Source: Paracoccaceae bacterium (GTDB lineage Bacteria; Pseudomonadota; Alphaproteobacteria; Rhodobacterales; Rhodobacteraceae). Taken from it: a stretch of DNA of 64,000 bases. Position 1 is the stretch's first letter; each line of letters opens with the position of its first letter. The stretch lies in contig JALHOL010000004.1 in assembly GCA_022843025.1 (NCBI GenBank), positions 62,001-126,000 of the forward strand, given 5' to 3'. Shown in pieces: positions 10,993 through 32,405 of the stretch. Both the position numbers and the translations under genes were made by a program. A model generated the notes under the pieces. That model had not been told where the DNA came from. It did no database searches and was given only the letters and a program-made list of their open reading frames with translations.

Positions 10993-11007
10993 GGTTTCGT
11001 CGGAAAA

Positions 11008-11040: not shown

Positions 11041-11084
11041 CGCCGCTATCCCCACTGCGAAGATTGGTCAGGGGGACCGCCGAT

Positions 11085-11909: not shown

Positions 11910-11958
11910 TTTCCCTAACCGGCCCCGGTTTCGGGGTCTTTCAACACGGAGCGTTCCG

Positions 11959-12855: not shown

Positions 12856-12871
12856 TCTTTCGCACTGCAAA

Positions 12872-12906
12872 GCCGGGCTGCCCTTTGGGCGGCCCGGCCC
12901 TTTTTT
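12872..12906 (+). terminator. terminator-like hairpin between phnD and phnE
   Basis: A 12-bp stem (arms GCCGGGCTGCCC and GGGCGGCCCGGC, one G-T wobble) with a 3-base loop is followed two bases later by six T residues. It lies in the 60-bp gap inside the transporter operon, so it should act as a partial terminator that keeps the binding protein more abundant than the permeases. Confidence 0.75.
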
Positions 12907-12915
12907 GGGGGCCAT

Positions 12916-13794: not shown

Positions 13795-13797
13795 CCC

Positions 13798-15123: not shown

Positions 15124-15124
15124 C

Positions 15125-16928: not shown

Positions 16929-16953
16929 GACACCTCTCACGGTTTAAATGCCC

Positions 16954-16990: not shown

Positions 16991-17701
16991 TCAGGCCCGA
17001 TCAACTGTAAGTGTGATGCGATCCCCGGCAAACCATGTTGTGCCGTATTCAATCGGCACCCCAGCCGCGTCGACATTGACGGCGACAGTGCGCAGGACGG
17101 GTGCGCCTTCCTTGATCTGAAGGGCAAGGGCCAGCATCGGCTTTGCCGCCTTGGCCGTCAGCCGGGTGGAAGAGCGGGTGTAATCGGCCACGCCGCAAGC
17201 GGCGAGGGCGGCGGTGATGGAACCAGACCCCTCTAGCAATCGGAGCAGGTCAGGCAGGCGGTCGGCCGGAAAGATGGACCGGAACATCGCCAGCGGCTGG
17301 CCATCGGCAAGCGAGACGCCTTCCACCACATGCACCTTTGCGCCGTCGGGGAGGTGAAGCTGGGCAGCCTCGGCCGCATCGGCGGGGCGGGTTTCCAGCC
17401 GCGTCAGTCGGCGGGAGGGTGTCATGCCGGCGGCGGTGACGGCCTGATGGAACCGCACGCGGCGGCCAAGGGGATAATCCGTCGCGCGGCCGGTGACGAA
17501 GACGCCCGCACCGCGCCGGGATTGCACCAGCCCCGCCTCTGCCAGCGCCGACAGCGCGTGGCGGACGGTGTGGCGGTTCACGCCGAAGCGGGCCGCCAAT
17601 TCCGCCTCGGTCGGGAGGCGGCCACCGGGTGGGACGTGGCCCCGCGCGATTTCGGCCTGAAGCGTGGCGGCGATTTCTCGCCAGATGGATGACCGGGCCA
17701 T
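16991..17701 (-). CDS. phnF: GntR/HutC-family regulator PhnF
   Basis: 236 aa. The N-terminal winged helix-turn-helix is GntR type (PPGGRLPTEAELAARFGVNR, then TVRHALSALAEAGLVQSRRGAG). The C-terminal ligand domain is UTRA/HutC type (…VHVVEGVSLADGQPLAMFRS… and VPIEYGTTWFAGDRI). The ATG at 17701 has a G-rich ribosome site; the open frame extends further upstream without support. It is divergent from phnG and probably represses both directions through the TTGTATAG repeats. Upstream of phnM1 in one transcription unit. Confidence 0.93.
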   Translation of the reverse strand: MARSSIWREIAATLQAEIARGHVPPGGRLPTEAELAARFGVNRHTVRHALSALAEAGLVQSRRGAGVFVTGRATDYPLGRRVRFHQAVTAAGMTPSRRLTRLETRPADAAEAAQLHLPDGAKVHVVEGVSLADGQPLAMFRSIFPADRLPDLLRLLEGSGSITAALAACGVADYTRSSTRLTAKAAKPMLALALQIKEGAPVLRTVAVNVDAAGVPIEYGTTWFAGDRITLTVDRA

Positions 17702-17768
17702 GTGCCCCCCTGTCATGGAAGTTTCACCAAAGCTTCGCACCATCGACTCGACAGTGGCTGTATTGAAT

Positions 17769-17784
17769 TTGTATAGTTGTATAG
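17769..17784 (+). promoter_or_regulatory. candidate PhnF operator, tandem TTGTATAG
   Basis: Two exact adjacent copies of TTGTATAG in an AT-rich 20 bp of the phnF/phnG divergent gap, 23-38 bp before phnG. HutC-family PhnF proteins are known to bind TATA-containing sites, so assignment is by position and composition. Confidence 0.5.
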
Positions 17785-17806
17785 AAATCTGGACAAGCGA
17801 CAAAAG

Positions 17807-18271
17807 ATGTCTAGCCAAGCACTCGATACTGCCCCCGATACTGCTGAGCGCCAAAACTGGATGGGTCTTTTGGCCCGTGCGAAGGCCGCGCATCTGGCGG
17901 CCTTGCTGCCCGATCCGCTGCCCGATCACAGCCTGCTGCGGGCGCCTGAAATAGGCGCGGTGATGGTGCGCGGGCGGGCGGGTGCGACGGGCGCGCCGTT
18001 CAACCTGGGTGAAATGACGGTGACGCGGTGCAGTTTAAGGCTGGCCTCGGGCGTGGTGGGACATGCCGTGGTGCAGGGCCGCGATCGCGCCCATGCGCGC
18101 CGCGCGGCAACGGTTGATGCGCTGATGCAGACCGGTGAAGCGGCGGCGATCCGGGCGGGGGTTCTGGTGCCCTTGGCCGAGGCCGAGACGGCGGCACGGC
18201 AGACCCGGGCCGAGAAGGCGGCGGCGACGAAGGTGGAGTTCTTCACCATGGTGCGGGGAGAGGACAAATGA
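17807..18271 (+). CDS. phnG: C-P lyase subunit PhnG
   Basis: 154 aa. Family motif FNLGEMTVTRCSLRLASG and GHAVVQGRDRAHARRAATVDAL are characteristic. PhnG belongs to the PhnGHIJ core complex that, with PhnM, converts ATP and an alkylphosphonate to ribose phosphonate triphosphate and adenine. ATG 17807 is preceded by an A-rich site. First gene of phnGHIJKLN; its stop overlaps the phnH start. Confidence 0.95.
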   Translation: MSSQALDTAPDTAERQNWMGLLARAKAAHLAALLPDPLPDHSLLRAPEIGAVMVRGRAGATGAPFNLGEMTVTRCSLRLASGVVGHAVVQGRDRAHARRAATVDALMQTGEAAAIRAGVLVPLAEAETAARQTRAEKAAATKVEFFTMVRGEDK

Positions 18272-18840
18272 CGGGTGCCGATGTGCTGTCGGGTGGTTTT
18301 GTCGATCCGCCGATTGATGCGGCGCGGGCCTTTCGCGCCTGTCTGGACGTGATGGCGCGGCCTGGCCGGATTGCGGAACTTGACGGGGCCGTTCCGCCTC
18401 GGCCGCTGTCGGTGGCGGCGGGGGTGCTTGCTCTGACGCTGCTGGATGGGACAACGCCGGTGCATCTGGCGGGCGGGCATGACTGCGCGGCGGTGCGGGA
18501 CTGGATCACCTTTCACACCGGTGCGCCCTTTGCGGATGCGGAAAGGGCGGCCTTTGCCTTTGGGACATGGGACGCGCTGCATCCTGTAACGCGCTTTGGC
18601 ATCGGGACACCTGAATATCCCGACCGTGCCTGCACGCTGGTTGTGGAAAGTGCGATGCTGGAGCCTCGCGGGGCGCGGTTGTCGGGCCCGGGGATCAAGG
18701 ATCACGCGCTTTTGTCACTGCCTGAAGTGGCGGCTTTTCGCGCCAATCGGGCGCTGTTTCCGCTGGGCTTTGACGCCTTTTTCACGGCGGGTACCCGGAT
18801 TGCCGGATTGCCCCGATCCACCATCGTGGAGGACATCTGA
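18268..18840 (+). CDS. phnH: C-P lyase subunit PhnH
   Basis: 190 aa. Typical PhnH features are ARAFRACLDVMARPGRIAEL, TLLDGTTPVHLAG, FGIGTPEYPDRACTLV and LSGPGIKD. PhnH is a PLP-transferase-like fold without catalytic residues that sits in the PhnGHIJ core. ATGA overlap with phnG; its stop TGA shares a base with the phnI start. Confidence 0.95.
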   Translation: MTGADVLSGGFVDPPIDAARAFRACLDVMARPGRIAELDGAVPPRPLSVAAGVLALTLLDGTTPVHLAGGHDCAAVRDWITFHTGAPFADAERAAFAFGTWDALHPVTRFGIGTPEYPDRACTLVVESAMLEPRGARLSGPGIKDHALLSLPEVAAFRANRALFPLGFDAFFTAGTRIAGLPRSTIVEDI

Positions 18841-19928
18841 TGTATGTGGCCGTAAAGGGTGGCGAACGCGCCATCGACAATGCCCATGCCTTTCTGGGGG
18901 AAGAGCGGAGGGGCGATCCAGCGGTTGCGGAACTGACCACCGCGCAAATCCGCGAACAGTTGCGGTTGGCGGTGAACCGGGTAATGGCGGAGGGGTCTTT
19001 GTATGACCCGGACCTTGCCGCGCTGGCGATCAAGCAGGCGCGGGGCGATCTGATCGAGGCGGTGTTCCTGATCCGCGCCTATCGCACCACCCTGCCCCGG
19101 CATGGCGTATCGCTCCCCGTGGACACGGCGCAGATGGCGGTGACGCGGCGGATCAGCGCGACGTTCAAGGATGCACCCGGTGGGCAGGTGCTGGGGCCGA
19201 CGTTTGATTACACGCACCGCCTGCTGGATTTCACGCTGGAGGCCAATGGCGAGGCGCCGGTTGCGCCCCGTGCGCCCGCGATGGCGGGGGCGGTGCCGCA
19301 TATCACATCCTTTTTGAACCGCGACGGGATGATCGAGGAAGCCCCCCATGAAGACACCCCGCCGCCCGACCTAACGCGCGAGCCGATGGAACTGCCCGCG
19401 GCGCGCGCGACGCGGTTGCAGGCGATTGCGCGGGGGGATGAGGGGTTCATCCTATCACTCGCCTACTCCACGCAGCGCGGCTACGGGCGCACGCATGCCT
19501 TTGTGGGCGAGTTGCGGATCGGGATGGTGGCAGTGGAGATGGAGGTGCCCGAACTGGGGTTCGCCATCTGCATTGGCGAAGTGGAATTGACGGAATGCGA
19601 GACGGTGAACCAGTTCAAGGGATCACGCACGGAACCCCCGCAATTCACGCGGGGCTATGGCCTGACCTTTGGGCAGAATGAGCGCAAGTCCATCGCCATG
19701 AGCCTGGTTGACCGGGCACTGCGTTGGAAGGAATTGGGCGAGGATTACACCGGGGCCCCGGCACAGGATGAGGAATTCGTGCTGATGCATGCCGACAATG
19801 TGCAGGCGACCGGGTTTCTGGAACACATCAAGCTGCCCCACTACGTGGATTTTCAGAGCGAGTTGGAACTGGTGCGCAAGCTGCGGGCCGAGGTTGCGGC
19901 CAGCACAATGCAGGAGGCGGCAGAATGA
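18840..19928 (+). CDS. phnI: C-P lyase subunit PhnI
   Basis: 362 aa, full length for the family. N-terminus MYVAVKGGERAIDNAHAFL and internal FILSLAYSTQRGYGRTHAF and GYGLTFGQNERKSIAMSL are diagnostic. PhnI carries the nucleosidase activity that displaces adenine from ATP with phosphonate. Its start uses the A of the phnH stop codon and its end overlaps phnJ by 4 bp. Confidence 0.97.
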   Translation: MYVAVKGGERAIDNAHAFLGEERRGDPAVAELTTAQIREQLRLAVNRVMAEGSLYDPDLAALAIKQARGDLIEAVFLIRAYRTTLPRHGVSLPVDTAQMAVTRRISATFKDAPGGQVLGPTFDYTHRLLDFTLEANGEAPVAPRAPAMAGAVPHITSFLNRDGMIEEAPHEDTPPPDLTREPMELPAARATRLQAIARGDEGFILSLAYSTQRGYGRTHAFVGELRIGMVAVEMEVPELGFAICIGEVELTECETVNQFKGSRTEPPQFTRGYGLTFGQNERKSIAMSLVDRALRWKELGEDYTGAPAQDEEFVLMHADNVQATGFLEHIKLPHYVDFQSELELVRKLRAEVAASTMQEAAE

Positions 19929-20803
19929 CCGACCAAGCGTACAACTTCGCCTATCTGGACGAGCAGACCAAGCGGATGATCCGGCGTGCGATCCTGAAGG
20001 GGGTGGCGGTTCCGGGCTATCAGGTGCCCTTTGCCAGCCGGGAAATGCCCATGCCTTATGGATGGGGCACGGGTGGGGTTCAGGTGACGGCAGCCTGTCT
20101 GACGCCCGAGGATGTGCTGAAAGTGATCGACCAAGGGGCGGATGACACCACCAATGCCGTGTCGATCCGCAAGTTCTTTCAGCGCACGGCGGGGGTAGCG
20201 ACGACAGAGGCCACGGGCGAGGCGACGCTGATCCAGACGCGCCACCGCATCCCGGAACAGCCGCTGACCGAGGATCAGATCCTTGTCTATCAGGTGCCAA
20301 TCCCGGAACCGTTGCGCTTTCTGGAACCGCGCGAGACGGAGACGCGGAAGATGCACAGCCTTGAAGAATACGGGCTGATGCATGTGAAGCTGTATGAAGA
20401 CATCGCCCGGCATGGGCATATCGCCACCGCCTATGCCTATCCGGTGAAGGTGGAGGGGCGCTATGTGATGGACCCTTCACCCATCCCGCGTTTTGACAAT
20501 CCGAAACTGTCAGACTGCCCGGCGCTGCAACTGTTTGGCGCGGGGCGAGAACAGCGCATCTATGCGCTGCCGCCCTATACGCAGGCCGTGAGTCTGGATT
20601 TCGAAGATCACCCGTTCGAGGCATCGAAGGCGCCGCATGACTGCGATCTGTGCGGTGCGGCGGACAGCTATCTGGACGAGGTCATCACCGATGATCAGGG
20701 CGGGCGGATGTTCGTCTGTTCCGACACCGATCATTGCCGCTGCCGCCGCGAGGCGGGGCATGTGGGGCGGCTGGGGACACCAATGGTTGAGGGGGTTGCC
20801 TGA
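19925..20803 (+). CDS. phnJ: C-P lyase catalytic subunit PhnJ (radical SAM)
   Basis: 292 aa. The unusual radical-SAM cluster cysteines are Cys240, Cys243 and Cys265, with Cys271 in the position of the thiyl-radical residue (CDLCGAADSYLDEV…CSDTDHCRC). PhnJ breaks the carbon-phosphorus bond of ribose 1-alkylphosphonate 5-phosphate, releasing the alkane and a 1,2-cyclic ribose phosphate. All catalytic cysteines are present, so the pathway should be functional. It overlaps phnI and phnK by 4 and 1 bp. Confidence 0.98.
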   Translation: MTDQAYNFAYLDEQTKRMIRRAILKGVAVPGYQVPFASREMPMPYGWGTGGVQVTAACLTPEDVLKVIDQGADDTTNAVSIRKFFQRTAGVATTEATGEATLIQTRHRIPEQPLTEDQILVYQVPIPEPLRFLEPRETETRKMHSLEEYGLMHVKLYEDIARHGHIATAYAYPVKVEGRYVMDPSPIPRFDNPKLSDCPALQLFGAGREQRIYALPPYTQAVSLDFEDHPFEASKAPHDCDLCGAADSYLDEVITDDQGGRMFVCSDTDHCRCRREAGHVGRLGTPMVEGVA

Positions 20804-21624
20804 TGGGGGCCGTGGAATTGGGTATTTCCGCCAAGATAAAGCCCGAAGTTAAGTCGGAGGGTCCGCTGCTTTCTGTTCGCGGGTTGACCAAGCGCTATGG
20901 CGCGCGGATCGGCTGTGCGGATGTGGGGTTTGAACTGTGGCCCGGCGAGGTGCTGGGGATCGTCGGCGAAAGCGGTTCGGGTAAATCGACGCTGCTGTCT
21001 TGTCTGGCGGGGCATCTGGCGCCGGACACGGGCGAGGTGGTCTTTGCCACCCGCGAGGGGCCACGCGATGTGCTGACCATGACAGAACCCGAGCGGCGGC
21101 GGCTGTCGCGCACGGATTGGGCCTTTGTCCATCAGAACCCGCGCGACGGGTTGCGGATGGGCGTGACGGCGGGCGGCAATGTGGGCGAGCGGTTGATGGC
21201 CGTGGGCGCACGGAACTATGGCGACATCCGCGACCGGGCGACGGATTGGCTGGGGCGGGTGGAAATTGCCGCAGAGCGGATCGATGATCGGCCTTCTGCC
21301 TTTTCCGGCGGGATGCAGCAGCGGTTGCAGATCGCGCGCAATCTGGTGACGGGGCCACGACTGGTGTTCATGGATGAACCCACGGGGGGGCTGGATGTCA
21401 GCGTGCAGGCGCGGCTGTTGGATCTGCTCCGAGGGCTGGTGCGGGAGATGGGGCTTTCGGCCATCATCGTGACGCATGATCTGGCGGTGGTGCGGTTGCT
21501 GGCGGATCGGCTGATGGTGATGAAATCCGGCCATGTGGTGGAGCAGGGTTTGACTGATCAGGTGCTGGACGACCCGCAGCATGCGTATACGCAACTCCTC
21601 GTCTCTTCCGTTTTGCAGGTTTGA
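20803..21624 (+). CDS. phnK: C-P lyase ABC-type ATPase PhnK
   Basis: 273 aa. Walker A GESGSGKST, signature FSGGMQQRLQIARNL, Walker B LVFMDEPTGGLDVS, switch VTHDLAVVRLLADR. PhnK docks on the PhnJ subunits of the core complex. About 20 extra N-terminal residues precede LLSVRGLTKRYG. It follows phnJ with a 1-bp overlap. Confidence 0.96.
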   Translation: MGAVELGISAKIKPEVKSEGPLLSVRGLTKRYGARIGCADVGFELWPGEVLGIVGESGSGKSTLLSCLAGHLAPDTGEVVFATREGPRDVLTMTEPERRRLSRTDWAFVHQNPRDGLRMGVTAGGNVGERLMAVGARNYGDIRDRATDWLGRVEIAAERIDDRPSAFSGGMQQRLQIARNLVTGPRLVFMDEPTGGLDVSVQARLLDLLRGLVREMGLSAIIVTHDLAVVRLLADRLMVMKSGHVVEQGLTDQVLDDPQHAYTQLLVSSVLQV

Positions 21625-21625
21625 C

Positions 21626-22309
21626 ATGATCGAGATATCCGAGCTTTCAAAGACCTTTACCCTGCACAATCAGGGCAGCGCGGTGATCCGGGTGATGGCG
21701 GATGCCAATCTGACCGTGGCACCCGGCGAATGTGTCGGGCTGATCGGTGCGTCGGGGGCGGGGAAATCCACGCTGATGCGGATGGTCTATGGCAACTATC
21801 TGGCCGCAGCGGGCAGCATCCGGATTGCGGGGACGGACATCACCCGCGCCACCCCGCGCGAGATCATCGCATTGCGGCGCAGCACCCTGGGATATGTGAG
21901 CCAGTTTCTGCGGGTGGTGCCGCGCGTGCCGACGCTGGATGTGGTGGCAGAGCCGCTGCTGACGCTGGGCCATCCGATGGCCGAGGCGCGGGCGCGGGCC
22001 GCGGGGTTGCTGCGCGTTTTGAACATTCCCGAACGGCTGTGGACGCTGTCGCCCACCACCTTCTCCGGGGGGGAACAGCAACGCGTGAACATCGCGCGGG
22101 GGTTCATCCACCCTTATCCGGCGCTGCTGCTAGATGAGCCGACGGCAAGCCTTGATGCCGCGAACCGGGAGGTTGTGCTGTCACTGATCGAGGCGGCCAA
22201 GGCGCGAGGGGCGGCGATCCTTGGGATTTTCCATGACGAGGCGGCGCGGGCGCGGGTCTGTGATCGGTTCGTGGATGTGGCGGCCTTTACCCCCAGAGCG
22301 GCAGCATGA
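21626..22309 (+). CDS. phnL: C-P lyase ABC-type ATPase PhnL
   Basis: 227 aa. Starts MIEISELSKTFTLHNQG as in other PhnL proteins. Walker A GASGAGKST, Q-loop YVSQFLRVVPRVPTLDVVAEP, signature FSGGEQQRVNIARGFI, Walker B LLLDEPTASLD, then GIFHDEAAR. The ATG at 21626 lies one base after the phnK stop; an in-frame start inside phnK was rejected. Confidence 0.96.
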   Translation: MIEISELSKTFTLHNQGSAVIRVMADANLTVAPGECVGLIGASGAGKSTLMRMVYGNYLAAAGSIRIAGTDITRATPREIIALRRSTLGYVSQFLRVVPRVPTLDVVAEPLLTLGHPMAEARARAAGLLRVLNIPERLWTLSPTTFSGGEQQRVNIARGFIHPYPALLLDEPTASLDAANREVVLSLIEAAKARGAAILGIFHDEAARARVCDRFVDVAAFTPRAAA

Positions 22310-22860
22310 CAGCCAATAGGATGGGGCGTTTGTTTGCGGTTGTCGGCCCGTCCGGCGCGGGGAAAGACACGCTGATCGATGCAGGCCGCGCGGCGCGACC
22401 CGACCTGCTGATCGTGCGGCGGGTGATCACCCGGCCCGAGGCTTTGGGTGGCGAGGATTTCGAAGGGGTGAGCGAGGCGGAGTTTGCCAAACGCAAGGTG
22501 CGGGGTGACTTCGCGCTGGACTGGCGGGCGCATGGGCTGCGCTATGGTCTGCCCGCGTTGCAGATTGCGGAACGGCTGGCGGGGCGGGATGTGCTGTTCA
22601 ACGGATCGCGCGCGGCACTGGAAGCGGCGGCGATGATCTTTCCCGATCTGGTGGTGATCCGCGTGACCGCCCCATCGACGGTGTTGATGGAACGCCTGCT
22701 GGCGCGCGGGCGCGAGACGCGCGAGGAGATTGCCGCGCGGATACAGCGGGCGAGCTATGAGGTGCCTGCCGGGCTGAGCGTGATCGACGTCAGCAATGAC
22801 GGGCCACTGGAGGCCGGGGTGGCGCGGTTTCTGGACGCGATTCAGCCGGTAAGCGGGTAG
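22306..22860 (+). CDS. phnN: ribose 1,5-bisphosphate phosphokinase PhnN
   Basis: 184 aa P-loop kinase related to guanylate kinase: Walker A GPSGAGKDT, then VRRVITRPEALGGEDFEGVSE. It phosphorylates ribose 1,5-bisphosphate to PRPP, the last step of the C-P lyase route. Overlaps the phnL stop (ATGA). Its 3' end overlaps the convergent DUF1045 gene by 19 bp. Confidence 0.95.
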   Translation: MTANRMGRLFAVVGPSGAGKDTLIDAGRAARPDLLIVRRVITRPEALGGEDFEGVSEAEFAKRKVRGDFALDWRAHGLRYGLPALQIAERLAGRDVLFNGSRAALEAAAMIFPDLVVIRVTAPSTVLMERLLARGRETREEIAARIQRASYEVPAGLSVIDVSNDGPLEAGVARFLDAIQPVSG

Positions 22861-23507
22861 CGATGCAGCAGATGAAACCATCCGTCGCCATCTTCGCCGA
22901 ACAGGCAGAGGTCTGTGATGTCGAACGGGCGCGGCAGCACCTCGGCAAACCACGGGCCAAGAATCGCGGCAGTCGCCTGGGCAGCAGCGGGGGGCAGGTC
23001 ATCGGTGAGGGTGAGGTGGAAACGAAACTCCTCCATCACATAGGGATAACCCCAGCGGGCGAGCAATTCGCGTTGACGGGGGCTGAGCCGGTCGGGGCGG
23101 CGGCGGGCGACTTCCACCTCGGTCAATGGGGAGCGGAGGGGATCAAGGCGGCTCACAACCTCGGCCCCGAGCGCGAGGAGGTCGGTCTCATCGCCTTCAG
23201 GGGTGAAGGCGAGAAAGCCCTTGAGGATTTCGAGGCGCAGGCCCGCCATCCGCACCGGGGGCAAGCGCGTGGCCAGCGCGGCGAGGTCGGATTGCAGCAA
23301 ACGCGCATCGACGCCTTCGGCAAGGCGGAACGGGGCCTTGATCGTGCCATGAAAGCCATAGCGCCGGGGGGCAGCGGTCAGCGTGGCTGCCGGGCCGGGA
23401 AGGCCGGGCAGATCAGGGGCCGCATCGGACAGCCAGAGATTGGCGCGGGTGGCGAAATCGCCGGGCGGCGGCGCGTAGTAGACGGCAAAGCGTTTGAAAT
23501 CTGTCAT
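22842..23507 (-). CDS. DUF1045 phosphonate-operon protein, 2H phosphoesterase fold
   Basis: 221 aa. Two H-x-T motifs characteristic of 2H phosphoesterases are visible: His53-Gly-Thr55 in YGFHGTIKAPF and His164-Leu-Thr166 in FRFHLTLTDDL. The N-terminus FKRFAVYYAPPPGDFA and FDITDLCLFGEDGDG fit the DUF1045/TIGR03223 family that accompanies phn loci. No phnP is recognisable here, so this protein may open the 1,2-cyclic ribose phosphate made by PhnJ; that role is inferred. Divergent from phnM2 across a Pho-like site. Confidence 0.88.
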   Translation of the reverse strand: MTDFKRFAVYYAPPPGDFATRANLWLSDAAPDLPGLPGPAATLTAAPRRYGFHGTIKAPFRLAEGVDARLLQSDLAALATRLPPVRMAGLRLEILKGFLAFTPEGDETDLLALGAEVVSRLDPLRSPLTEVEVARRRPDRLSPRQRELLARWGYPYVMEEFRFHLTLTDDLPPAAAQATAAILGPWFAEVLPRPFDITDLCLFGEDGDGWFHLLHRYPLTG

Positions 23508-23528
23508 GCCCGCAGCCCTAGCGCCCGT

Positions 23529-23550
23529 CTGTCACATGGATGTGACGCAA
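23529..23550. promoter_or_regulatory. Pho-box-like / palindromic site between DUF1045 gene and phnM2
   Basis: CTGTCACATGG followed by ATGTGACGCAA gives two 11-bp half sites, the first nearly identical to CTGTCACATTA before pstS. Within it GTCACAT-GG-ATGTGAC is a perfect inverted repeat, so it could serve both divergent promoters. Confidence 0.5.
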
Positions 23551-23620
23551 TGCCCCCATGTGATGCCTTTTGCATTTCCCTGCGGCCAGTATCGCCGCCC
23601 CTTTTCATCGGACGAGACCT

Positions 23621-24763
23621 ATGACCGAGACGATCCTTGCCAATGCCACCCTTGTTCTGCCCGATGAGGTGTTCACCGGGGCGCTTTTGCTGCGTGATGG
23701 GGTGATTGCGGATATCGCCAAGGGCGCGGCGCAGCCTGCGGGGGCCGAGGATATGGGCGGCGACATGCTGATGCCCGGTCTGATTGAATTGCATACGGAC
23801 AATCTGGAACGCCATATCGAGCCCCGGCCCAAGGTGGCATGGCCCCATGCCGCCGCCATCATCGCGCATGATGCGGAATTGGCAAGTGTAGGGATCACCA
23901 CGGTATTCGATGCACTGCGGGTGGGATCGGTGGTATCCAAAGCCAAGGCGAATTACGGGGAATATGCCCGTGCCTTGGCCGATGAGATCATCGCGCTGCG
24001 TGAGGCAGGGGCGCTGCGGATCAACCATCTGCTGCATCTGCGAGCCGAGGTCTGTTCCGAGACGCTGATCGCGGAGTTGGGCAAGTTCGGGCCAGAGGAT
24101 GGGGTCGGGATCGTCAGCCTGATGGACCACACGCCCGGACAGCGGCAGTTTCGCGACATCACGCAGTTGAAAAATTACGTCTGCGGCAAGCACGGGTTTT
24201 CGGATGCGGAATTCGTGGAGCATGTCGAAGGGCAGAAGGCGCTGTCAGCGATGATGGGCAGCGCGCATGAATCGGCGGCGGTAGAGGCTGCGCGCCGCTA
24301 TGGCGCGGTTCTGGCCAGCCATGATGACACGACCGAGGGGCATGTCGCGCAATCGGCGCGGCATGGCGCGACCTTTGCTGAATTTCCCACCACGGCCGAG
24401 GCGGCGCGCGCCTGCCGGGCGCAAGGCATTGCAGTGATGATGGGGGCGCCGAACCTGATCCGGGGCGGGTCGCATTCTGGCAACGTCGCCGCGCAGGCGC
24501 TGGCCGAGGAGGGGCTGCTGGATATCCTGTCGTCGGATTATGTGCCGTCATCGCTGCTGTCGGCGGCGCTGATGTTGGGCGATCTGTGGGGCGATCCGGC
24601 GCGGGCGGTGGCCACGGTGACGCGGGCACCTGCGACGGCGACGGGGCTTATGGATCGGGGCGAGATTGCGCCGGGCAAGCGGGCGGATGTGATCCGGGTG
24701 CATCGCTTTGGCGATGCCGGGATGCTGCGCGGGACGTGGGTGGCGGGGCGGCGGGTGGGCTGA
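23621..24763 (+). CDS. phnM: alpha-D-ribose 1-methylphosphonate 5-triphosphate diphosphatase PhnM (canonical, paralogue 2)
   Basis: 380 aa, the best match to characterised PhnM: GLIELHTDNLERHIEPRP (His58, Asp60), SLMDHTPGQRQF, LASHDDTTEGHV, MGAPNLIRGGSHSGN and LSSDYVPSSLL. It removes diphosphate from the triphosphorylated phosphonate intermediate before PhnJ acts. ATG 23621 was chosen over an upstream in-frame start at 23570. It stands alone after the divergent DUF1045 gene and converges on the acyltransferase gene 4 bp away. Confidence 0.95.
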   Translation: MTETILANATLVLPDEVFTGALLLRDGVIADIAKGAAQPAGAEDMGGDMLMPGLIELHTDNLERHIEPRPKVAWPHAAAIIAHDAELASVGITTVFDALRVGSVVSKAKANYGEYARALADEIIALREAGALRINHLLHLRAEVCSETLIAELGKFGPEDGVGIVSLMDHTPGQRQFRDITQLKNYVCGKHGFSDAEFVEHVEGQKALSAMMGSAHESAAVEAARRYGAVLASHDDTTEGHVAQSARHGATFAEFPTTAEAARACRAQGIAVMMGAPNLIRGGSHSGNVAAQALAEEGLLDILSSDYVPSSLLSAALMLGDLWGDPARAVATVTRAPATATGLMDRGEIAPGKRADVIRVHRFGDAGMLRGTWVAGRRVG

Positions 24764-24767
24764 TCCC

Positions 24768-25643
24768 TTACCACTTTACATGGGCGGGCCAGCGGAACAC
24801 CTCATCCCCCTGCCCGCCCAGCGCCATGGTGCGGCGGCGGAGTTCGGCGGCGATGTCATTGCGGGCAATCCCGGCAAGGGTTTCTGCCGTGATCGGTTGG
24901 CCGATCGTCATGTCCAGCGGACGTCCCATGAGACGGCGGGTTTCGTGGAAGATCAGCGCGATGCGCAGCGGATAGGACAGGTGGCTGGCCATCTGGAACA
25001 GGCGGGAATTCTGGCCCGCGAAATGCACGGGCAGCGTTGTCACACCGGGAAGCGTGGCAAGGCGGCCAAGGAAGGCATGCCATTCGGCATCATGGGCGCG
25101 CCCGCGAATGGGCGAATTGGCCGTGGCGATGCCACCACCGGGGAAGATCGCCACGACCTTGCCGGCTGACAGCAATTCAACGGCCAGCTTGCGGCTTTGG
25201 CCCGAGGTCTTGCGCCCCTCCGGTGTACCACTGAAATCGATGGGCAGCAGGTGGGGGGCAACTTCGGGCGGCTGGCACAGGACGCTGTTGGTCAGGATCT
25301 GCACATTGCCGCGCAGGCGCATGCCAAGCTGGCCAAGCGCCAGACCGTCGATGATGCCATAGGGGTGGTTGGCCACGAGCAAGAGGCCGCCAGTCTGCGG
25401 GATGTTGGACGCGGGCAAGTGCCATGTGGTGCGCGGCGCAATGCGGAGAAGGCGCAGGGCGGCGTCAAAGACCGATTCCTCGTGGCGCGGGCCGGCCTGC
25501 CAATCCCTGTATAGGCCGCGCAGCATGGGCTGGCCGCTGGCGCGTTCGACGGCGCGGATCAGGGCGCGGCGAAAGGGGGATTGGCCGGGATGGCTGTAGG
25601 TGAGGTCGGGCGCGGTGTCGTCGGTGGCGAAAGTGTCGGTCAT
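24768..25643 (-). CDS. PlsC-like lysophospholipid acyltransferase family protein
   Basis: 291 aa. The acyltransferase block I is variant, NHPYGIIDG (His93 to Asp99, one residue longer than HX4D), and FPGGG at 167-171 fits block III. The family includes enzymes that esterify lyso-ornithine lipids or lysophospholipids. It is the last gene of phnD2-phnC2-phnE3-methyltransferase-phnM3, 18 bp after phnM3, with a good GGGGA ribosome site. A role in lipid remodelling under phosphate limitation is attractive but inferred. Confidence 0.75.
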   Translation of the reverse strand: MTDTFATDDTAPDLTYSHPGQSPFRRALIRAVERASGQPMLRGLYRDWQAGPRHEESVFDAALRLLRIAPRTTWHLPASNIPQTGGLLLVANHPYGIIDGLALGQLGMRLRGNVQILTNSVLCQPPEVAPHLLPIDFSGTPEGRKTSGQSRKLAVELLSAGKVVAIFPGGGIATANSPIRGRAHDAEWHAFLGRLATLPGVTTLPVHFAGQNSRLFQMASHLSYPLRIALIFHETRRLMGRPLDMTIGQPITAETLAGIARNDIAAELRRRTMALGGQGDEVFRWPAHVKW

Positions 25644-25661
25644 TGCGTCCCCTTTTTTCGG

Positions 25662-26900
25662 TCAAGCCATCTGGGCCAGATGAAGCGCTGCGTCGGGCAG
25701 CGCCGAATAGCCACCGCGCCCGGCAACCCAGGTGCGGATGGGTGCCGGCATGCCCTGATCGGGCCAGTCGAGAAGAACCAGATCGGCGCGTTGGCCCGGC
25801 GCGATGCGACCACGATCCGCCAGACCCATGGCCGCCGCCGGATTGGCAGAAACGAGCCGCCACAGCGCGGGCAGGCTGGCCACGCCATCGGCCAGCAGGC
25901 GCACGACGGCACCCAGCATGGCCGGATAGAAGTAATCAGACGCCAGAATATCGCACAGGCCGCGCGCGATCATCTCGGCCGCGCCGGGCGAGCCGAGGTG
26001 TGAACCGCCGCGCATTGCGTTGGGCGCGCCAAGGACGATCCAATCGCCCTTTTCCCGTGCCGAAAGGAACACGCGTTCATGCATCGGGAATTCCGCGATC
26101 TGCGCGCCATGGGCGCGGTAAAAGTCGCGTGTGTCGGTCTGGCTGTCATCATGCGACAGCATGGGTGCGCCGCGTTCGGCAGCCATGGCGGCCACCACGG
26201 CAATGTCATCCCCGACGCGCGGGCGGCGGTTCCAGACCGTCATCATCAGCGCGACATAGGCATCAAGATCCATATGCGACCGCTTGGCGCGGCTATCCAT
26301 CTTGGCCCGGAAGGCGGGGGTGGAAAGGTCGGTCACCGGGTAATCTGGCACCAGGTCGAACGGACGGTCATGCAGCGCGATGGAGGGGTGCAGCAGGGCC
26401 GATGAAGTGTGGTCATTGAAGGCGACAGAAGGCGCGTCCTTGGCGGCCAAGGCCTCGGCCATCAGGGGGATGGCTTCGGGGCAGAAGGTTTCCCAGCGCA
26501 GTTGCAGACGGTTTTCCACCGTCAGGCGCGGGCGCAGGCGGCCCAAGGCGTGCAGCATGTCCCATCCGGTTTGCACGGAACGCAGGCCGGGTTCCCAGCT
26601 GAGCGTGAGGGCGTGGTAGGCGGTGGCGATGCCGTTTGCGGCAAGCTGACGGTCAGTTTCCAGAAGCGCGGCGTCGATCGGGACGGTCACGCCGGGGCGG
26701 GGCATGATCTGGCGTTCAAACGCATCGCCGTGGATGTCGACAAAGGCGGGGGCAAGGATGCGACCGCGCGCGTCGATCACCGCTGCGCCGTCGCGCGCCA
26801 CATCCAGCCCGGTGATGCGTCCGGATTCGATCCGGACCGCAGCGCGTTCGATGCGGTCTTCTAGGATGACGCGCGCGCCTTCAATGACGACGGCATCCAT
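25662..26900 (-). CDS. PhnM-like amidohydrolase, paralogue 3
   Basis: 412 aa. Amidohydrolase metal motifs are complete: VDIHGD (His57, Asp59) then AFERQIMPRP, FNDHTS, LSHDDSQTDTR, LGAPNAMRGGSHLGS and LASDYFYP. It is about 30 residues longer than the canonical PhnM and contains a distinct segment around SRAKRSHMDLDAYVALMMTV. The ATG at 26900 overlaps the methyltransferase stop by 1 bp. Its operon context (own PhnDCE transporter, methyltransferase, acyltransferase) suggests a substrate other than the C-P lyase intermediate. Confidence 0.8.
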   Translation of the reverse strand: MDAVVIEGARVILEDRIERAAVRIESGRITGLDVARDGAAVIDARGRILAPAFVDIHGDAFERQIMPRPGVTVPIDAALLETDRQLAANGIATAYHALTLSWEPGLRSVQTGWDMLHALGRLRPRLTVENRLQLRWETFCPEAIPLMAEALAAKDAPSVAFNDHTSSALLHPSIALHDRPFDLVPDYPVTDLSTPAFRAKMDSRAKRSHMDLDAYVALMMTVWNRRPRVGDDIAVVAAMAAERGAPMLSHDDSQTDTRDFYRAHGAQIAEFPMHERVFLSAREKGDWIVLGAPNAMRGGSHLGSPGAAEMIARGLCDILASDYFYPAMLGAVVRLLADGVASLPALWRLVSANPAAAMGLADRGRIAPGQRADLVLLDWPDQGMPAPIRTWVAGRGGYSALPDAALHLAQMA

Positions 26901-27556
26901 CACAGACGCTCCGCCAAGATATGCCAATGCCATGAGCCGGGCTTTTCATGTTCCCTGTCGATGAGCGAAAGCGGCTCGAACCCGGAGAAAAGCGCCAGAA
27001 GATCGCGCGCATTGCAGAAGTAATGCGGGTGGACCTTGTCGCCTTCGCCGTCGAAGACCCAGGTATTGCGCGAAATCTCACGCCCCGGTGCAAGGGCCTG
27101 TTCCACCGGAACACGGCGGGCGGACAGCATGGTGGCCATGAAGGTGCCGCCGGGGCGCAGGACGCGGGCGACTTCGGCCAATGTGGTGCGGACCACGGTT
27201 TCATCGCCGTGATAGATCACGTTCCAGGACAGGACGTGATCGAAGGTTCCGTCGGCATAGGGCAGATCGGTCATCGCACCCTGCTTCACACCGATATCCA
27301 GCCCTTCGGCCTTTGCTGCGAGGTCGATCACGCGGACGGATTCGGCGGCGGCATCCAGCGCCTGAACCTTCAGGCCCATCCGGGCCAGTGCCAGAGCGTG
27401 CCGTCCGATCCCGGCGCCAAGGTCAAGGACGCGCGCGCCTTTGGGAAGATGGGCGGCATGGGCCAGAACCTCATCCTCGGCGCGTGCCCATTTGGACGTG
27501 CCGTCAGCGCGCTGCCATTCTTCGTTCCAGTAGCGATGAGCCGTATCGGTTGTCAT
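26900..27556 (-). CDS. class I SAM-dependent methyltransferase
   Basis: 218 aa. Rossmann-type motif I VLDLGAGIGRHALALA, acidic residue after beta-2 (QALDAAAESV), motif FDHVLSWNVIYHGDE and post-motif VLRPGGTFMATML. Substrate unknown; the His-rich stretch HPHYFCNARDLLALF is notable. Lies between phnE3 (12 bp) and phnM3 (1-bp overlap), so it is surely part of that operon. Confidence 0.85.
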   Translation of the reverse strand: MTTDTAHRYWNEEWQRADGTSKWARAEDEVLAHAAHLPKGARVLDLGAGIGRHALALARMGLKVQALDAAAESVRVIDLAAKAEGLDIGVKQGAMTDLPYADGTFDHVLSWNVIYHGDETVVRTTLAEVARVLRPGGTFMATMLSARRVPVEQALAPGREISRNTWVFDGEGDKVHPHYFCNARDLLALFSGFEPLSLIDREHEKPGSWHWHILAERL

Positions 27557-27568
27557 GGCAGAGCCTTT

Positions 27569-28378
27569 TCAGATCAATTTGGACCGGATCCAGCTGGACC
27601 CTTGTTCGACGATCATCACCAAAGCCAGCAGCATCAGGATGATGGTCAGCGCCTCGTCGTAGTTGAACAGGTCGAAGGCGACTTTCAGATCGACCCCGAT
27701 GCCGCCCGCGCCCACAAGGCCCAAAGCCGCCGACCCGCGCACGGCCTTTTCCAGCGCAAAGAGCGAGGTTGCGGTGAACGATGGAAGACAGGCGGGAAAG
27801 ACGGCAGAGAAGATGATGCCCATGCGGCTGGCACCGATGGAGCGCAGGGCGTCTTGCGGGCCGGTGTCGGCCTCTTCCATCGCTTCGGCGAAGAAGCGGC
27901 CGGCAAAACCGATCTTGTCGACCATGATGGCCAGCACGCCAGCAGCGGGGCCAAGGCCCACCATGATGATGAAGAAGATCGCCCAGACCAGATCGGGGAT
28001 GGTGCGAAACAGCGCAATGATCGCGCGGGCCGCAACGCGGATCAGCGGGTGCGGCGACAGACGGTCGGTGGCGAGGATTGCGAAGGGCACCGCAAAGACA
28101 AGGCCAAGCGCCGCCCCGGCAACGGCCATTTGCAGGGTTTCCAGCAGCTTTAGCGCGATACGGTCGATCCGGCTGATATCCGGCGGGAACATCTGCGCCA
28201 GCAGGCCAGAGGGTGCAAAAAGGCGGGTGATCCCGCGACCCAGCGCATCGAATTGTGGGGCAGTGGCGGCGATGCTGGAGACGACCAGCGCCAGCACAAC
28301 GATGATCCCGATGTATTCGCCGATGCTGCGATGTTCGAACCGTGGCAGGTTGACCGTTCCGTTTGCCATCCGTGTCAT
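27569..28378 (-). CDS. phnE: phosphonate-type ABC transporter permease PhnE (second locus)
   Basis: 269 aa. A membrane helix at about 20-40, then TLQMAVAGAALGLVFAVPFAI, LFRTIPDLVWAIFFIIMVGLG, the loop GPQDALRSIGASRMGIIFSAVFP and ALEKAVRGSAALGLVGAGGIGV. It belongs to the PhnE/PtxC group. A single permease here, unlike the phnE-phnE2 pair at 12.9-15.1 kb, so it probably homodimerises. ATGA overlap with phnC2. Confidence 0.92.
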   Translation of the reverse strand: MTRMANGTVNLPRFEHRSIGEYIGIIVVLALVVSSIAATAPQFDALGRGITRLFAPSGLLAQMFPPDISRIDRIALKLLETLQMAVAGAALGLVFAVPFAILATDRLSPHPLIRVAARAIIALFRTIPDLVWAIFFIIMVGLGPAAGVLAIMVDKIGFAGRFFAEAMEEADTGPQDALRSIGASRMGIIFSAVFPACLPSFTATSLFALEKAVRGSAALGLVGAGGIGVDLKVAFDLFNYDEALTIILMLLALVMIVEQGSSWIRSKLI

Positions 28379-29172
28379 TCCTGATGTTCGAAGAAGCGCC
28401 GCAGATGCGCGGCGTCGGTGCCTTGGGTGGGACGGTCCATCACGATCTTGCCTTGTTGCAGGCCAAGGATGTGGTCGGAGAATTCCAGCGTGTGTTCCAT
28501 TCGGTGCGAAATCACGATCAGCGTCAGTCCGTCCTGACGGGCGAGATCGGACAGCAGGCGCATGATCTCTTCGCCGGATTGCGGATCGAGGCTGGCATCG
28601 GGTTCATCGGCCAGGATGATGCGGGGACGTTGCATCAGCATCCGCGCGATGGCCACGCGCTGTGCCTGCCCGCCGGACAAACTGTCGACGCGTTGCAGGG
28701 CGCGGTCGGCTAGGCCAACGCGGGCGAGGCATTCCAGCGCTTCGGCGCGAACAGCGGCAGGGGCGATGGATTGGAACCAGGCGCGCGGGCCGGACATGCG
28801 GGCCTGCACGCCATGCACCACGTTGGACAGCGCCGAAAGGCGGGGAACGAGGTTGTGCTTTTGCCAGACCACGCCGACCTGCGCCCGAAAGGCCCGCAGC
28901 CCGCGCGGCGAGAGCGAGAGCACGTCCTGCCCCAGCATCTGCACCTGCCCGGCCGAGGGTTCAATCAGCCGGATCAGGCATTTCATCAGGGTGGATTTGC
29001 CCGAGCCGTTCGCCCCGATCAGGGCCGTCGCCACACCGGCGCGGACAGTGAAATCGATGCCCGCCAGAACCACGCGCCCGTCAAAGGATTTCTCCAGCTT
29101 CGAGACGGAAAGAACAGACCCCGCTTGCGCGGGATCTGTTGTCAAAAGCGGGGCGCGTAGGGGCGCATTCAT
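28375..29172 (-). CDS. phnC: phosphonate-type ABC transporter ATP-binding protein PhnC (second locus)
   Basis: 265 aa. Walker A GANGSGKST, VVWQKHNLVPRLSALSNVVHG (the PhnC Q-loop), signature LSGGQAQRVAIARMLMQ, Walker B IILADEPDASLDP and VISHRMEHTLEFSDHI. It begins 7 bp after phnD2. Only moderately similar to the first PhnC, so not a recent duplicate. Confidence 0.93.
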   Translation of the reverse strand: MNAPLRAPLLTTDPAQAGSVLSVSKLEKSFDGRVVLAGIDFTVRAGVATALIGANGSGKSTLMKCLIRLIEPSAGQVQMLGQDVLSLSPRGLRAFRAQVGVVWQKHNLVPRLSALSNVVHGVQARMSGPRAWFQSIAPAAVRAEALECLARVGLADRALQRVDSLSGGQAQRVAIARMLMQRPRIILADEPDASLDPQSGEEIMRLLSDLARQDGLTLIVISHRMEHTLEFSDHILGLQQGKIVMDRPTQGTDAAHLRRFFEHQE

Positions 29173-29179
29173 CGGGCGA

Positions 29180-30049
29180 TCACTCGCCCACGAATTCGGT
29201 GAATTCGGTCACGCCGACATTTTCAAACATCTTGCGGACGTTGTCGTAATCGGCATCGGTCACCGATGCGTTGAAGCTGCCGCCGATGTATTTTTCGTTT
29301 TCCTCGGTCGAGGTGACGGCGGCGATCAGTTCTTCGCCATGGTCGGCAAAGGTCTTGCGAACAATGTCGACCACTTCGGCGGGCACTTTGGACGAGGCGA
29401 GCAGGATGTCATTGGGCAGTTCCGCGCCCTTGACCAGAACGCGCAGTTTCTGATCAGGGAAGGCTTCGGTCATCTGGTCGATATGGGTGCGGTTCAGGCC
29501 GATGGCTGCAATCTCGCCGCTGATCAGGGCTTCCATCGCAATGTTGCGCTTCAGGAAGACGGGTTCGTAATCCGTGCCATAGACAAGGCCCGCTTCGGCC
29601 AGCAGGGTGGCCGGCGACAGGTGCTGCGAGGTGGAACCGATCTCACCGAACGAGATTTTCTGGCCCTTCAGACCCGCCGTATCCTTGATTTCGGAACTGT
29701 CGAGGACGACTACGTTGGAATAGTAGTCCGGGCGGTTCCAGGTCACCACCGGCACGGCATCCATGCGGGCGTTGAACACGACATACTCCGCCGGGCCGGT
29801 CAGCACGAAATCGACCTGCTCGGCGGCCATCGCCTCGACCGCCACGGTGCGGCCGGAAACGGGGAAGAATTCGACCTTGAGGCCGGAGATCTTTTCAAAG
29901 GCATCCTTGAACGGACCCATTTCGCGCTGCACGGCTTCGGCACCATCAATATCGGTGACGGCAAAGCGGATGGTTTCTTGCGCCGCGGCGATGCCTGCCC
30001 CTGCCATCATGGCAAGGCCGAAGATGCCGGCTTTCAGAAGATTGGTCAT
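29180..30049 (-). CDS. phnD: phosphonate/phosphite-type ABC transporter substrate-binding protein PhnD (second locus)
   Basis: 289 aa. Signal peptide ends at IAAA/QETIRF. Mature features are FPVSGRTVAVEAMAAEQVDFVLTGPAEYVVFNA, GEIGSTSQHLSPATLL and IGLNRTHIDQM. PhnD/PtxB family members bind phosphonate, phosphite or related oxyanions; the ligand here cannot be assigned. First gene of the six-gene leftward operon, with a Pho-like site 47-68 bp upstream. Confidence 0.9.
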   Translation of the reverse strand: MTNLLKAGIFGLAMMAGAGIAAAQETIRFAVTDIDGAEAVQREMGPFKDAFEKISGLKVEFFPVSGRTVAVEAMAAEQVDFVLTGPAEYVVFNARMDAVPVVTWNRPDYYSNVVVLDSSEIKDTAGLKGQKISFGEIGSTSQHLSPATLLAEAGLVYGTDYEPVFLKRNIAMEALISGEIAAIGLNRTHIDQMTEAFPDQKLRVLVKGAELPNDILLASSKVPAEVVDIVRKTFADHGEELIAAVTSTEENEKYIGGSFNASVTDADYDNVRKMFENVGVTEFTEFVGE

Positions 30050-30095
30050 GGAACCCCCAGTGGATGCGATTGGCGTTCCAAGCGGGGTAGAGCGG

Positions 30096-30117
30096 GCAGA
30101 TGACAGCGGGATGATGG
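30096..30117 (-). promoter_or_regulatory. Pho-box-like repeats upstream of phnD2
   Basis: The minus strand reads CCATCATCCCG then CTGTCATCTGC. The second starts with an exact PhoB half-site CTGTCAT and the first is a weaker copy in 11-bp phase, 47-68 bp before phnD2. Upstream in the same gap is a palindrome ATGAA-A-TTCAT (30150-30160 region) of unknown role. Confidence 0.5.
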
Positions 30118-30202
30118 TTTGGTTGCCGGATTGTAACGACGGGATGGCGTTACATGAAATTCATCTTACTGTTGCAGGCGTCATCTGCCGCCCGGAGGGG
30201 GA

Positions 30203-31016: not shown

Positions 31017-32405
31017 TCAGCGCAGCAGGAGGCCGATCTGTTGCGCCAGCATGGCAGGATCGACAGGCTGCTCCGTATCAACCTCGATCAGGGGGAACCC
31101 ACCCGAAGGGCGTGCACGTTCGGCCAGTGCGCGCAGTTCCGGCACATAGTCCAGACCGGGGTGGCCGGCGGGGCGGCTTCCTGCGCGGCGCGAGTAACGG
31201 TCGGCGATGGTATCAGGCCGGGCGTGGCACCAGACTTCGACCACCTCAGTGATCCCGGCGCGCTGCAACCCCTCGTCCAGCACGGCGCGGGGCTGGAAGC
31301 CGAACCATGCGTCTATAATGACTGTCGCGGCGGGCGGGTGCTGGGCGACCATGTCGAAGATGGCGGAGTATGTGGCCATGCCGAAGCGGCGGTTCATCGG
31401 GCGGTCGACAGGCGCGAATTCCAGCAGGAAGGGGTTCTTGACCGTATCAAGCGACAAGACAGGCCAGCCCCCAGTGCGAGAAAGGTGATCGGCGATTCCG
31501 GATTTACCCGACGCCGGAACCCCGTTGACCAGAATGGCACGGCGGCCGCGCGGCAGGCTGGCCAATGCCGCGCCCGTCACGCCCGCATCATCCTGAAGGG
31601 CCGCAGCGACCACGGGCGCATCGAACCAGGACCGCGCGGATGGCACGCGGGCAAGGGCCGCCAGTGCAGCCGCGCCTGCCCCACCACCGATCAGCACCAG
31701 ATCGGGCGAAACAGCCGTGATCATCGTGTCGATCGCGGAACGCAGCGGGGCAGCCCAGCGCATCAGCACGGTTTGCGCAGCGGAATCGTCGTCCATCGCC
31801 AACAAATCCTGGGCTCGCAGATGCGATGGCAACCCGGCTTCGGCCAGATGGGTGGCGAAGGCAGTGCCGGAACTTTCCGTTTCGACGCAGCCGCGACGTC
31901 CGCAGACGCACGGCCGCCCTTCGGGCATGACGACGAGATGGCCCAGTTGCCCTGCCGTTCCGCGGCCCCGCAGGATGCGCCCATGGTCGAGGATCGCCCC
32001 GCCAATGCCTGTGCCGATCGTGAACAGGACGGCATTTGCGCAGCCCCGGGCAGCGCCCACCCGCGCCTCGGCGATAAGGGCCATGCTGGCGTCATTGTCG
32101 ATGGTGACGGGCAGACCCGCCTCTTCGGCCAGCCGCCGGGCAAAGGGAATGCTGGACAGGTCGACATAACCACCCGACAGCGCGACCTGACGGTCGAAAT
32201 CCACCTGACCGGGCACACCGGCACCGATGGCCACGGTATCGGCATCGCGCAGGGCGGAGATCAGGGCAAGGCAGATGCGCAGGCAGGCATCCGGGTCGCG
32301 GTCTGTGGCCACGGCGCGACGGTCAAGGATGGTGCCGTCCGGTGCCACCCGCGCGGCGCGGATGTTGGTGCCGCCGATATCGATGCCGATGGCATTGCGC
32401 GGCAT
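31017..32405 (-). CDS. ROK-family sugar kinase fused to a C-terminal P-loop kinase-like domain
   Basis: 462 aa, two domains. Residues 4-288 are a ROK kinase: phosphate-1 loop IDIGGTN, catalytic Asp104 in IDNDAS, FTIGTGIGGAIL, His156, and the zinc motif with Cys166, Cys168 and Cys173 (CVCGRRGCVE). Residues 289-462 form a second nucleotide-binding domain with Walker A GVPASGKS at 295-302, an Asp after strand 2 (LSLDTVKNP), VIIDAWFG as Walker B-like, and Arg-rich DRYSRRAGSR as a possible lid. ROK proteins phosphorylate hexoses or N-acetyl sugars; the added domain is AAA_33/gluconokinase/zeta-like. Located 3 bp after the LacD-like aldolase gene. Confidence 0.85.
   Translation of the reverse strand: MPRNAIGIDIGGTNIRAARVAPDGTILDRRAVATDRDPDACLRICLALISALRDADTVAIGAGVPGQVDFDRQVALSGGYVDLSSIPFARRLAEEAGLPVTIDNDASMALIAEARVGAARGCANAVLFTIGTGIGGAILDHGRILRGRGTAGQLGHLVVMPEGRPCVCGRRGCVETESSGTAFATHLAEAGLPSHLRAQDLLAMDDDSAAQTVLMRWAAPLRSAIDTMITAVSPDLVLIGGGAGAAALAALARVPSARSWFDAPVVAAALQDDAGVTGAALASLPRGRRAILVNGVPASGKSGIADHLSRTGGWPVLSLDTVKNPFLLEFAPVDRPMNRRFGMATYSAIFDMVAQHPPAATVIIDAWFGFQPRAVLDEGLQRAGITEVVEVWCHARPDTIADRYSRRAGSRPAGHPGLDYVPELRALAERARPSGGFPLIEVDTEQPVDPAMLAQQIGLLLR

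Follow-up and report, generated by a model that had tools for sequence, protein, structure and literature searches.

We analysed a 64,000-nucleotide stretch from a Paracoccaceae bacterium (assembly GCA_022843025.1, contig JALHOL010000004.1, positions 62,001 to 126,000; the whole stretch is called the window here and belongs to a 3.9 Mb genome), in which six packed minus-strand open reading frames (24768-30049) join a phosphonate-type transporter to a PhnM-like hydrolase, a methyltransferase (MT), and an acyltransferase (AT). These are phnD2 (29180-30049), coding for a periplasmic binding protein of the PhnT family with a second type of pocket; phnC2 (28375-29172), an ATP-binding cassette (ABC) ATPase; phnE3 (27569-28378), an ABC permease; MT (26900-27556), a class I S-adenosylmethionine-dependent methyltransferase; phnM3 (25662-26900), a PhnM-like metal-dependent amidohydrolase of a second lineage with an insert behind its Asp-His motif; and AT (24768-25643), an optional member coding for an HX5D acyltransferase of the lysophosphatidic acid acyltransferase (LPAAT)/SalA/OlsF-N type. 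The set lies tail to tail with a carbon-phosphorus (C-P) lyase cluster and is convergent with its phnM2 gene, with 4 bp between them. It is probably a conserved accessory C-P lyase module with two undescribed members, MT and AT.

The packing described in the initial annotation, with overlaps or gaps of at most 18 bp, is confirmed. There are 7 bp between phnD2 and phnC2, an overlap of 4 bp between phnC2 and phnE3, 12 bp between phnE3 and MT, and 18 bp between phnM3 and AT. The MT-phnM3 overlap is 34 bp when the longest phnM3 frame is used, but an ATG at 26900 is a more likely start than that at 26933, giving a protein of 412 residues and a 1-base overlap with the MT stop codon (TGATG). The family assignments also hold: PhnD2 matches the PhnT binding-protein domain PF12974 (121.7 bits) and PhnE3 the equivalog model TIGR01097 (251.4 bits with a cut-off of 216.7), both above cut-offs, PhnC2 matches ABC_tran and scores 238.5 bits with TIGR02315, not reaching the cut-off of 266.1, MT matches PF13649/PF08241, PhnM3 exceeds the cut-off of the PhnM subfamily model NF011987 (369.3 bits, cut-off 253), and AT matches PF19576 and PF01553.

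A scan of a genome collection, which detects close relatives only, returned 39 loci (numbered with L; genomes with G), mostly Rhodobacterales by title, and PhnM3 is present in all of them, partly as fragments. PhnM3 points to an uncultured Rhodobacteraceae (90%) and Rhodobacter ruber CCP-1 (86%) as the nearest relatives. Judging the transporter genes and MT takes at least 3.3 kb of sequence in front, available in 32 loci, and judging AT takes at least 1.1 kb behind, available in 35. phnD2, phnC2, and phnE3 are all present in 30 of the 32 (exceptions L050 and L078) and MT in 22 of the 32, with AT present in 20 of the 35; one of these 20, L080, has AT in front of phnD2. Among 27 loci that have phnD2 and sufficiently long flanks on both sides, 13 carry both MT and AT, seven MT only, six AT only, and one neither. 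The set thus has a core of transporter and PhnM3, to which MT and AT are optional additions, and the conserved neighbourhood that the initial annotation proposed to look for is found. Because MT and AT are gained or lost in different loci, the six functions do not form one obligatory pathway. Downstream of the set, phnC1 of the C-P lyase transporter is reached within 4.5 kb in 20 of 35 loci; L045 and L046 have a pstS-like gene, phoU, and phoB immediately in front of the set, with PhoU and PhoB exceeding their NCBIfam cut-offs and the PstS match below its own.

The Pseudosulfitobacter pseudonitzschiae plasmid pSMR1-5 (L104) carries a mobile-looking version, with D2-C2-E3-MT-M3 followed by a major facilitator superfamily (MFS) transporter and a sugar-phosphate isomerase, in an island bordered by insertion-sequence transposases. 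Beside the island (L104:13294-17801) are a phnCDE set, a 2-hydroxyacid-dehydrogenase-type oxidoreductase, and a LysR regulator in an order that recalls the ptxABCDE phosphite operon; no phosphite-dehydrogenase model matched in this segment.

The search for PhnJ covered 39 genomes with PhnM3, 38 of them from the 39 loci (L054 left out) and the other being G022, and found it in every one, with a background of 48 of 289 genomes in an even sample of the class. This makes an accessory C-P lyase module likelier than a separate pathway. The D2-C2-E3 genes adjoin phn core genes in the distant alphaproteobacteria L083, L084, L086, L088, and L089, and a small 1.4 Mb genome (G259, L150) has the order D2-C2-E3-MT-HAD-phnGHIJKL-phnM. 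D2-type transporters also head C-P lyase operons on an Arthrobacter plasmid (D-C-E-F-G-H-I-J-K-L-M) and on the Marinobacter nauticus VT8 plasmid pMAQU01 (D-C-E-M-G-H-I-J-K-L-MFS-N-P), and the proposal that the set is independent of the phosphonate route next door is not supported in the light of these arrangements. The reach of this adjacency is more telling than the count of 39 of 39. We note that G022 has two different PhnJ copies (C2:24011-24823 and C1:303959-304762), both surrounded by further phn core genes, with the latter copy a few kb from D2-C2-E3-MT-M3.

PhnD2 scores below the PhnD equivalog model TIGR03431 (73.3 of 261.1 bits) and below the broader TIGR01098 (98.1 of 112.05 bits). 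Its nearest solved chain is PtxB 5o2j (73.5 bits by sequence), which is also nearest by fold to a structure model with a predicted local distance difference test (pLDDT) score of 85.7; PhnD1 is nearest to E. coli PhnD. The first-lobe tyrosine of PhnD is arginine in 47 of 48 PhnD2-type proteins and glutamine in one, the pocket aspartate is kept in all 48, and the pocket histidine is absent from all 48, in the column that is the least sure because a two-residue alignment gap lies beside it. PhnD1-type proteins keep both the tyrosine and the histidine (14 of 14). In E. coli PhnD the relevant residues are numbered Tyr47, Tyr93, and His157. The residues to which PMC5700983 ascribes the phosphite specificity of PtxB are gone from PhnD2 in the alignment, the cap tyrosine aligning with aspartate and the third-oxygen histidine being absent. 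With its phosphonate-head pocket altered in this way, PhnD2 likely binds a ligand other than that of PhnD1. That part of the initial annotation in which the set handles a different phosphorus compound is therefore plausible, although the independence from the adjoining phosphonate route that accompanied it is not supported, PhnJ being present in all 39 genomes searched.

PhnM3 lies under the cut-off of the PhnM equivalog model TIGR02318 (290.0 of 390.55 bits). In an 82-row PhnM tree (quick mode, midpoint root, several long branches), a canonical lineage that includes the E. coli protein and PhnM2 of the window splits from a second lineage that includes PhnM1 and PhnM3 (Shimodaira-Hasegawa-like approximate likelihood ratio test, SH-aLRT, 99) and also takes in the PhnMs directly beside D2-type transporters. 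The second lineage has the motif HGDAFER where the canonical one has HTDNLE or similar, but H57, D59, E62, E137, D163, H164, H250, D251, S300, H301, S321, D322, and Y323 are kept in both, comprising the active-site-type HxD, Glu, Asp-His, His-Asp, Ser-His, and Ser-Asp-Tyr positions. Behind the Asp-His motif, PhnM3 and closely related proteins carry an insert of about 20 residues, which is missing in the 10 canonical rows compared and in about 87% of 30 other second-lineage rows. Foldseek with the PhnM3 structure model (pLDDT 89.4) returns cyclic amidohydrolases and their relatives. The one PhnM annotated in the Marinobacter pMAQU01 operon is of the second lineage (the chromosome lay outside the search), which argues that this lineage can perform the C-P lyase step.

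Among the genomes sampled, MT is confined to those with PhnJ. It occurs in five of 289 class genomes and five of 398 phylum genomes, eight different genomes altogether, and PhnJ is present in all eight; for the five class genomes (five of five) the association has a p value of about 1e-4, or 6e-4 without the window's own genome. One of these, G621, is apparently the same genome as that of L069 and adds no independent case to the 39 loci. In seven of the eight genomes MT is the next gene after phnE of a D2-type transporter, and a plasmid search found it beside phnE on the Pseudosulfitobacter plasmid, together with one weak match (31%) in Nonomuraea. Well-kept blocks among 31 rows include WNVIYHG, TML..R, DK.HPH, and HWH, and a sequence search of the PDB gave 22 matches at E 1e-6, among them methyltransferases of several kinds and proteins without an assigned name. 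We considered a role of the tellurite or arsenic type, but MT has one cysteine, unlike ArsM. No paper on MT or AT in C-P lyase clusters, or on the six-gene set, was found within the open-licence part of PubMed Central.

AT carries the HX5D motif as NHPYGIID. Among the PF01553 proteins of its own genome its nearest relative (34%) is the HX5D gene just behind HPr, which we take to be SalA-like. AT has asparagine where this HPr-linked gene has arginine, and we take that arginine to be the equivalent of Arg135 of SalA. In PMC8319176, HX5D is the mark of SalA within the LPAAT superfamily, and Arg135 contacts the sulfonate in the published SalA docking. A sulfonolipid role for AT was weighed, and the asparagine counted against it. 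The phn-linked AT proteins form a clade of their own of 21 rows (the window and 20 of the 39 loci), a PDB sequence search gave no matches at E 0.1, and in 10 stretches of other genomes the surroundings of AT homologues contain no phn genes. AT may be a phosphate-controlled lyso-lipid acyltransferase that shares the promoter of the set and takes no step in phosphonate breakdown. We also note adjoining PF13444 and PF01553 genes resembling olsB and olsA in the window's own genome, and a 31% AT homologue about 7 kb from phnM2 in G022.

The Pho-box-like repeat that had been noted before the first gene is present as CCATCATCCCGCTGTCAT (30100-30117, minus strand, -68 to -51 from the phnD2 start) and matches 12 of 14 positions of the consensus CTGTCAT-N4-CTGTCAT; similar repeats occur in L043 and L044. 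It is the only match with at most two mismatches in the window, where matches with at most three are not enriched (seven found versus 4.1 expected). Sites with at least 11 of 14 positions lie upstream of 16 of the 43 scored phnD2-homologue starts, versus 1% of 4000 random 200-bp pieces; the rows are related, which overstates the significance, and five of the 48 homologues went unscored as their starts were not placeable. The set is predicted to be under phosphate-starvation control. Upstream of the Pho box is a perfect 7+7 palindrome, TGTAACG-N9-CGTTACA (30132-30154), which perhaps consists of two opposed Pho half-sites; near copies (13 of 14) occur only in the two nearest relatives, L043 and L044, and it was rejected as a general operator for that reason.

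Taking together the computed gene order, conservation, PhnJ link, altered pocket, active-site-type motifs, and Pho-box-like site, we propose that the set serves the resident C-P lyase as an accessory module that takes up and processes substrates for it under the control of phosphate starvation; for this reading, with the reactions, ligand, and regulation all proposed, we estimate a probability of roughly 0.58. PhnD2-C2-E3 would import a phosphonate with a head or tail unlike that of the PhnD1 ligand, and the C-P lyase core would join it to ribose triphosphate. PhnM3 would then remove pyrophosphate from that conjugate for substrates that the canonical PhnM2 handles poorly, with MT modifying either the imported phosphonate or its cleavage product, and AT contributing co-regulated lipid remodelling outside the pathway proper.

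Several observations weigh against this proposal. The 39 PhnM3 genomes are related, and 39 of 39 does not amount to 39 independent events; 35 of them also carry a PhnM exceeding the canonical cut-off, which makes PhnM3 dispensable for the basic step. In L085, L087, and L090 the transporter and a PhnM lie without phn core genes nearby, with PhnJ present in their genomes, D2-C2-E3-MT stands alone in L173 with PhnJ elsewhere in the genome, and on the plasmid stretches L107, L108, L111, and L113 the D2-type transporter is away from phnGHIJKL within the stretch seen. The PhnM closing the Arthrobacter operon falls on the canonical side of the tree, on a long branch, and that of Marinobacter is likewise a long branch whose standing as the only PhnM covers the plasmid operon. 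The eighth MT genome, G386, has MT beside another solute-binding protein with phosphodiesterase-type genes around it. Among the 36 class genomes with a PhnM3 match (E 1e-30), 31 are among the 48 with PhnJ; in four of the remaining five the match is canonical-type (motif HTD), which leaves G154 as the single second-lineage case. This complete genome of the window's own family lacks PhnJ and keeps its second-lineage PhnM (L181:8591-9745) among unrelated genes, hinting at a role outside C-P lyase. Plasmids of two Rhizobium species also carry PhnM3 relatives (61-63%), without D2-C2-E3 in the stretch, and with the G154 orphan these suggest that the second lineage may do something outside C-P lyase.

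The last two cases would fit a self-contained route that needs no C-P lyase, in which an ester or amide brought in by PhnD2-C2-E3 is hydrolysed directly by PhnM3, acting as an amidohydrolase, and MT modifies a product, and so would the Pseudosulfitobacter plasmid island, which has no phnGHIJKL in the 19 kb shown, the insert behind the Asp-His motif, and the loss of the head-binding histidine from PhnD2. The presence of PhnJ in every PhnM3 genome searched and every MT genome sampled, and the position of D2-type transporters at the head of the Arthrobacter and Marinobacter operons, nevertheless make such a route unlikely. The same Marinobacter operon, with its single annotated PhnM, and the retention of active-site-type residues could be read as plain redundancy, with a second transporter and PhnM isoenzyme for the same phosphonates retained for dosage; but the PhnD2 pocket is changed at conserved head contacts, and the M3-specific residues and insert are kept in at least 95% of 38 M3 rows, and we regard redundancy as quite improbable.

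The initial annotation also linked uptake to membrane lipids, a link that is weak and derives from the acyltransferase family. In its fuller form, an imported phosphonate or head group would be methylated by MT and built into, or recycled from, a membrane lipid by AT, in keeping with the HX5D lyso-lipid acyltransferase type of AT (PMC8319176) and with its staying with the set even when located in front, as in L080. This is very unlikely: 15 of the 35 loci that could be judged lack AT and 10 of 32 lack MT, and these are not the same loci; the phn-linked AT clade is confined to the window and 20 of 39 loci; and AT has asparagine where the SalA-like gene of the same genome has arginine. A phosphite or phosphate scavenging transporter with passenger genes, suggested by PtxB being nearest to PhnD2 in both sequence and fold, is hardly credible given that the cap tyrosine aligns with aspartate and the third-oxygen histidine is lost (PMC5700983). 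It is, finally, conceivable though unlikely that D2-C2-E3, MT, and PhnM3 form a dedicated entry route for unrecognised natural phosphonates, such as monoesters or lipid- or sugar-linked forms, with C-P lyase finishing the breakdown. In that case PhnD2, with arginine in place of tyrosine and histidine, would recognise a head that has fewer free oxygens; the substrate would be masked or marked by MT; and hydrolysis of the ester, the amide, or its ribosyl triphosphate would fall to the insert-bearing PhnM3.

The adjoining C-P lyase cluster includes phnC1-D1-E1-E2 and a hexapeptide transferase (10947-15742, plus strand; phnC1 and phnE1 named by Pfam domain and order only), phnG-H-I-J-K-L-N (17777-22860, plus; phnK and phnL named by order and ABC_tran only), and the canonical phnM2 (23621-24763, plus, listed frame 23570-24763; TIGR02318 438.1 bits, exceeding the cut-off), with phnM1 (15744-16940) and a phnF frame (16991-17929) on the minus strand. 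A DUF1045 gene (2H-phosphoesterase-like, 22842-23507, minus) lies between phnN and phnM2 on the strand opposite to both, and the plus-strand frame 22863-23624 in that interval has no family match. Frames such as 13249-14514 (minus) and 26948-28153 (plus) appeared conserved and were discarded, as real genes on the other strand overlap them. Further along, the window codes for a ROK kinase fused to an AAA_33 domain (31017-32405), neighboured by a short-chain dehydrogenase/reductase (SDR) and a tagatose-bisphosphate-aldolase-like gene; these sugar genes upstream of the set were rejected as partners, the ROK kinase and aldolase recurring only in L043 and a 28% SDR match only in L076. In G386, the 44% MT homologue (L174) adjoins SBP_bac_8, a calcineurin-like phosphoesterase, Exo_endo_phos, and a type I phosphodiesterase/nucleotide pyrophosphatase, and this genome has three PhnJ copies.

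If the accessory C-P lyase module is as we propose, it probably lets a Rhodobacter-kind bacterium use a particular phosphonate through C-P lyase when phosphate is scarce, and the existence of a further substrate-binding class and PhnM lineage linked with C-P lyase would go some way to explain which phosphonates bacteria can reach. Rhodobacterales C-P lyase clusters were already reported in 2013 to hold a second PhnM-like hydrolase without a defined role (Martinez 2013, PMC3840354), which is named phnM1 in Sosa 2017 (PMC5649143), and PMC9381506 mentions second phnM copies outside the operon. The set supplies partner genes, testable together, for such an extra hydrolase.

PhnM1 of the window, beside phnF and a hexapeptide transferase, fits the Rhodobacterales phnM1 of PMC3840354 and PMC5649143 in a comparison of place only. 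PhnM3 resembles that phnM1 in being a second PhnM-like hydrolase of undefined role but differs in its branch, its insert, and its tie to D2-C2-E3-MT instead of phnF. AT is like SalA, the roseobacter sulfur-aminolipid O-acyltransferase (PMC8319176), in its HX5D motif and LPAAT superfamily, but has asparagine at the presumed Arg135 place and belongs to a separate phn-linked clade. PhnD2 shares its fold, Ser-Thr-Ser motif, and hinge tyrosine with PtxB, PhnD, and GpxB (PMC5700983, PMC12718374), and keeps the Asp205-type residue, whereas its Tyr47-type residue is arginine, the His157-type residue is lost, and Glu177 is Thr or Ser in 30 near relatives. The set as a whole is like the E. coli phnC-P C-P lyase operon, which is under Pho control (PMC3840354), in transporter type, PhnM-type hydrolase, adjacency to phnGHIJKL, and Pho-box-like site. 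It is unlike that operon in having a second transporter with another pocket, a second-lineage PhnM, and the added MT and AT, and in forming its own transcription unit, convergent with phnM2 in the window.

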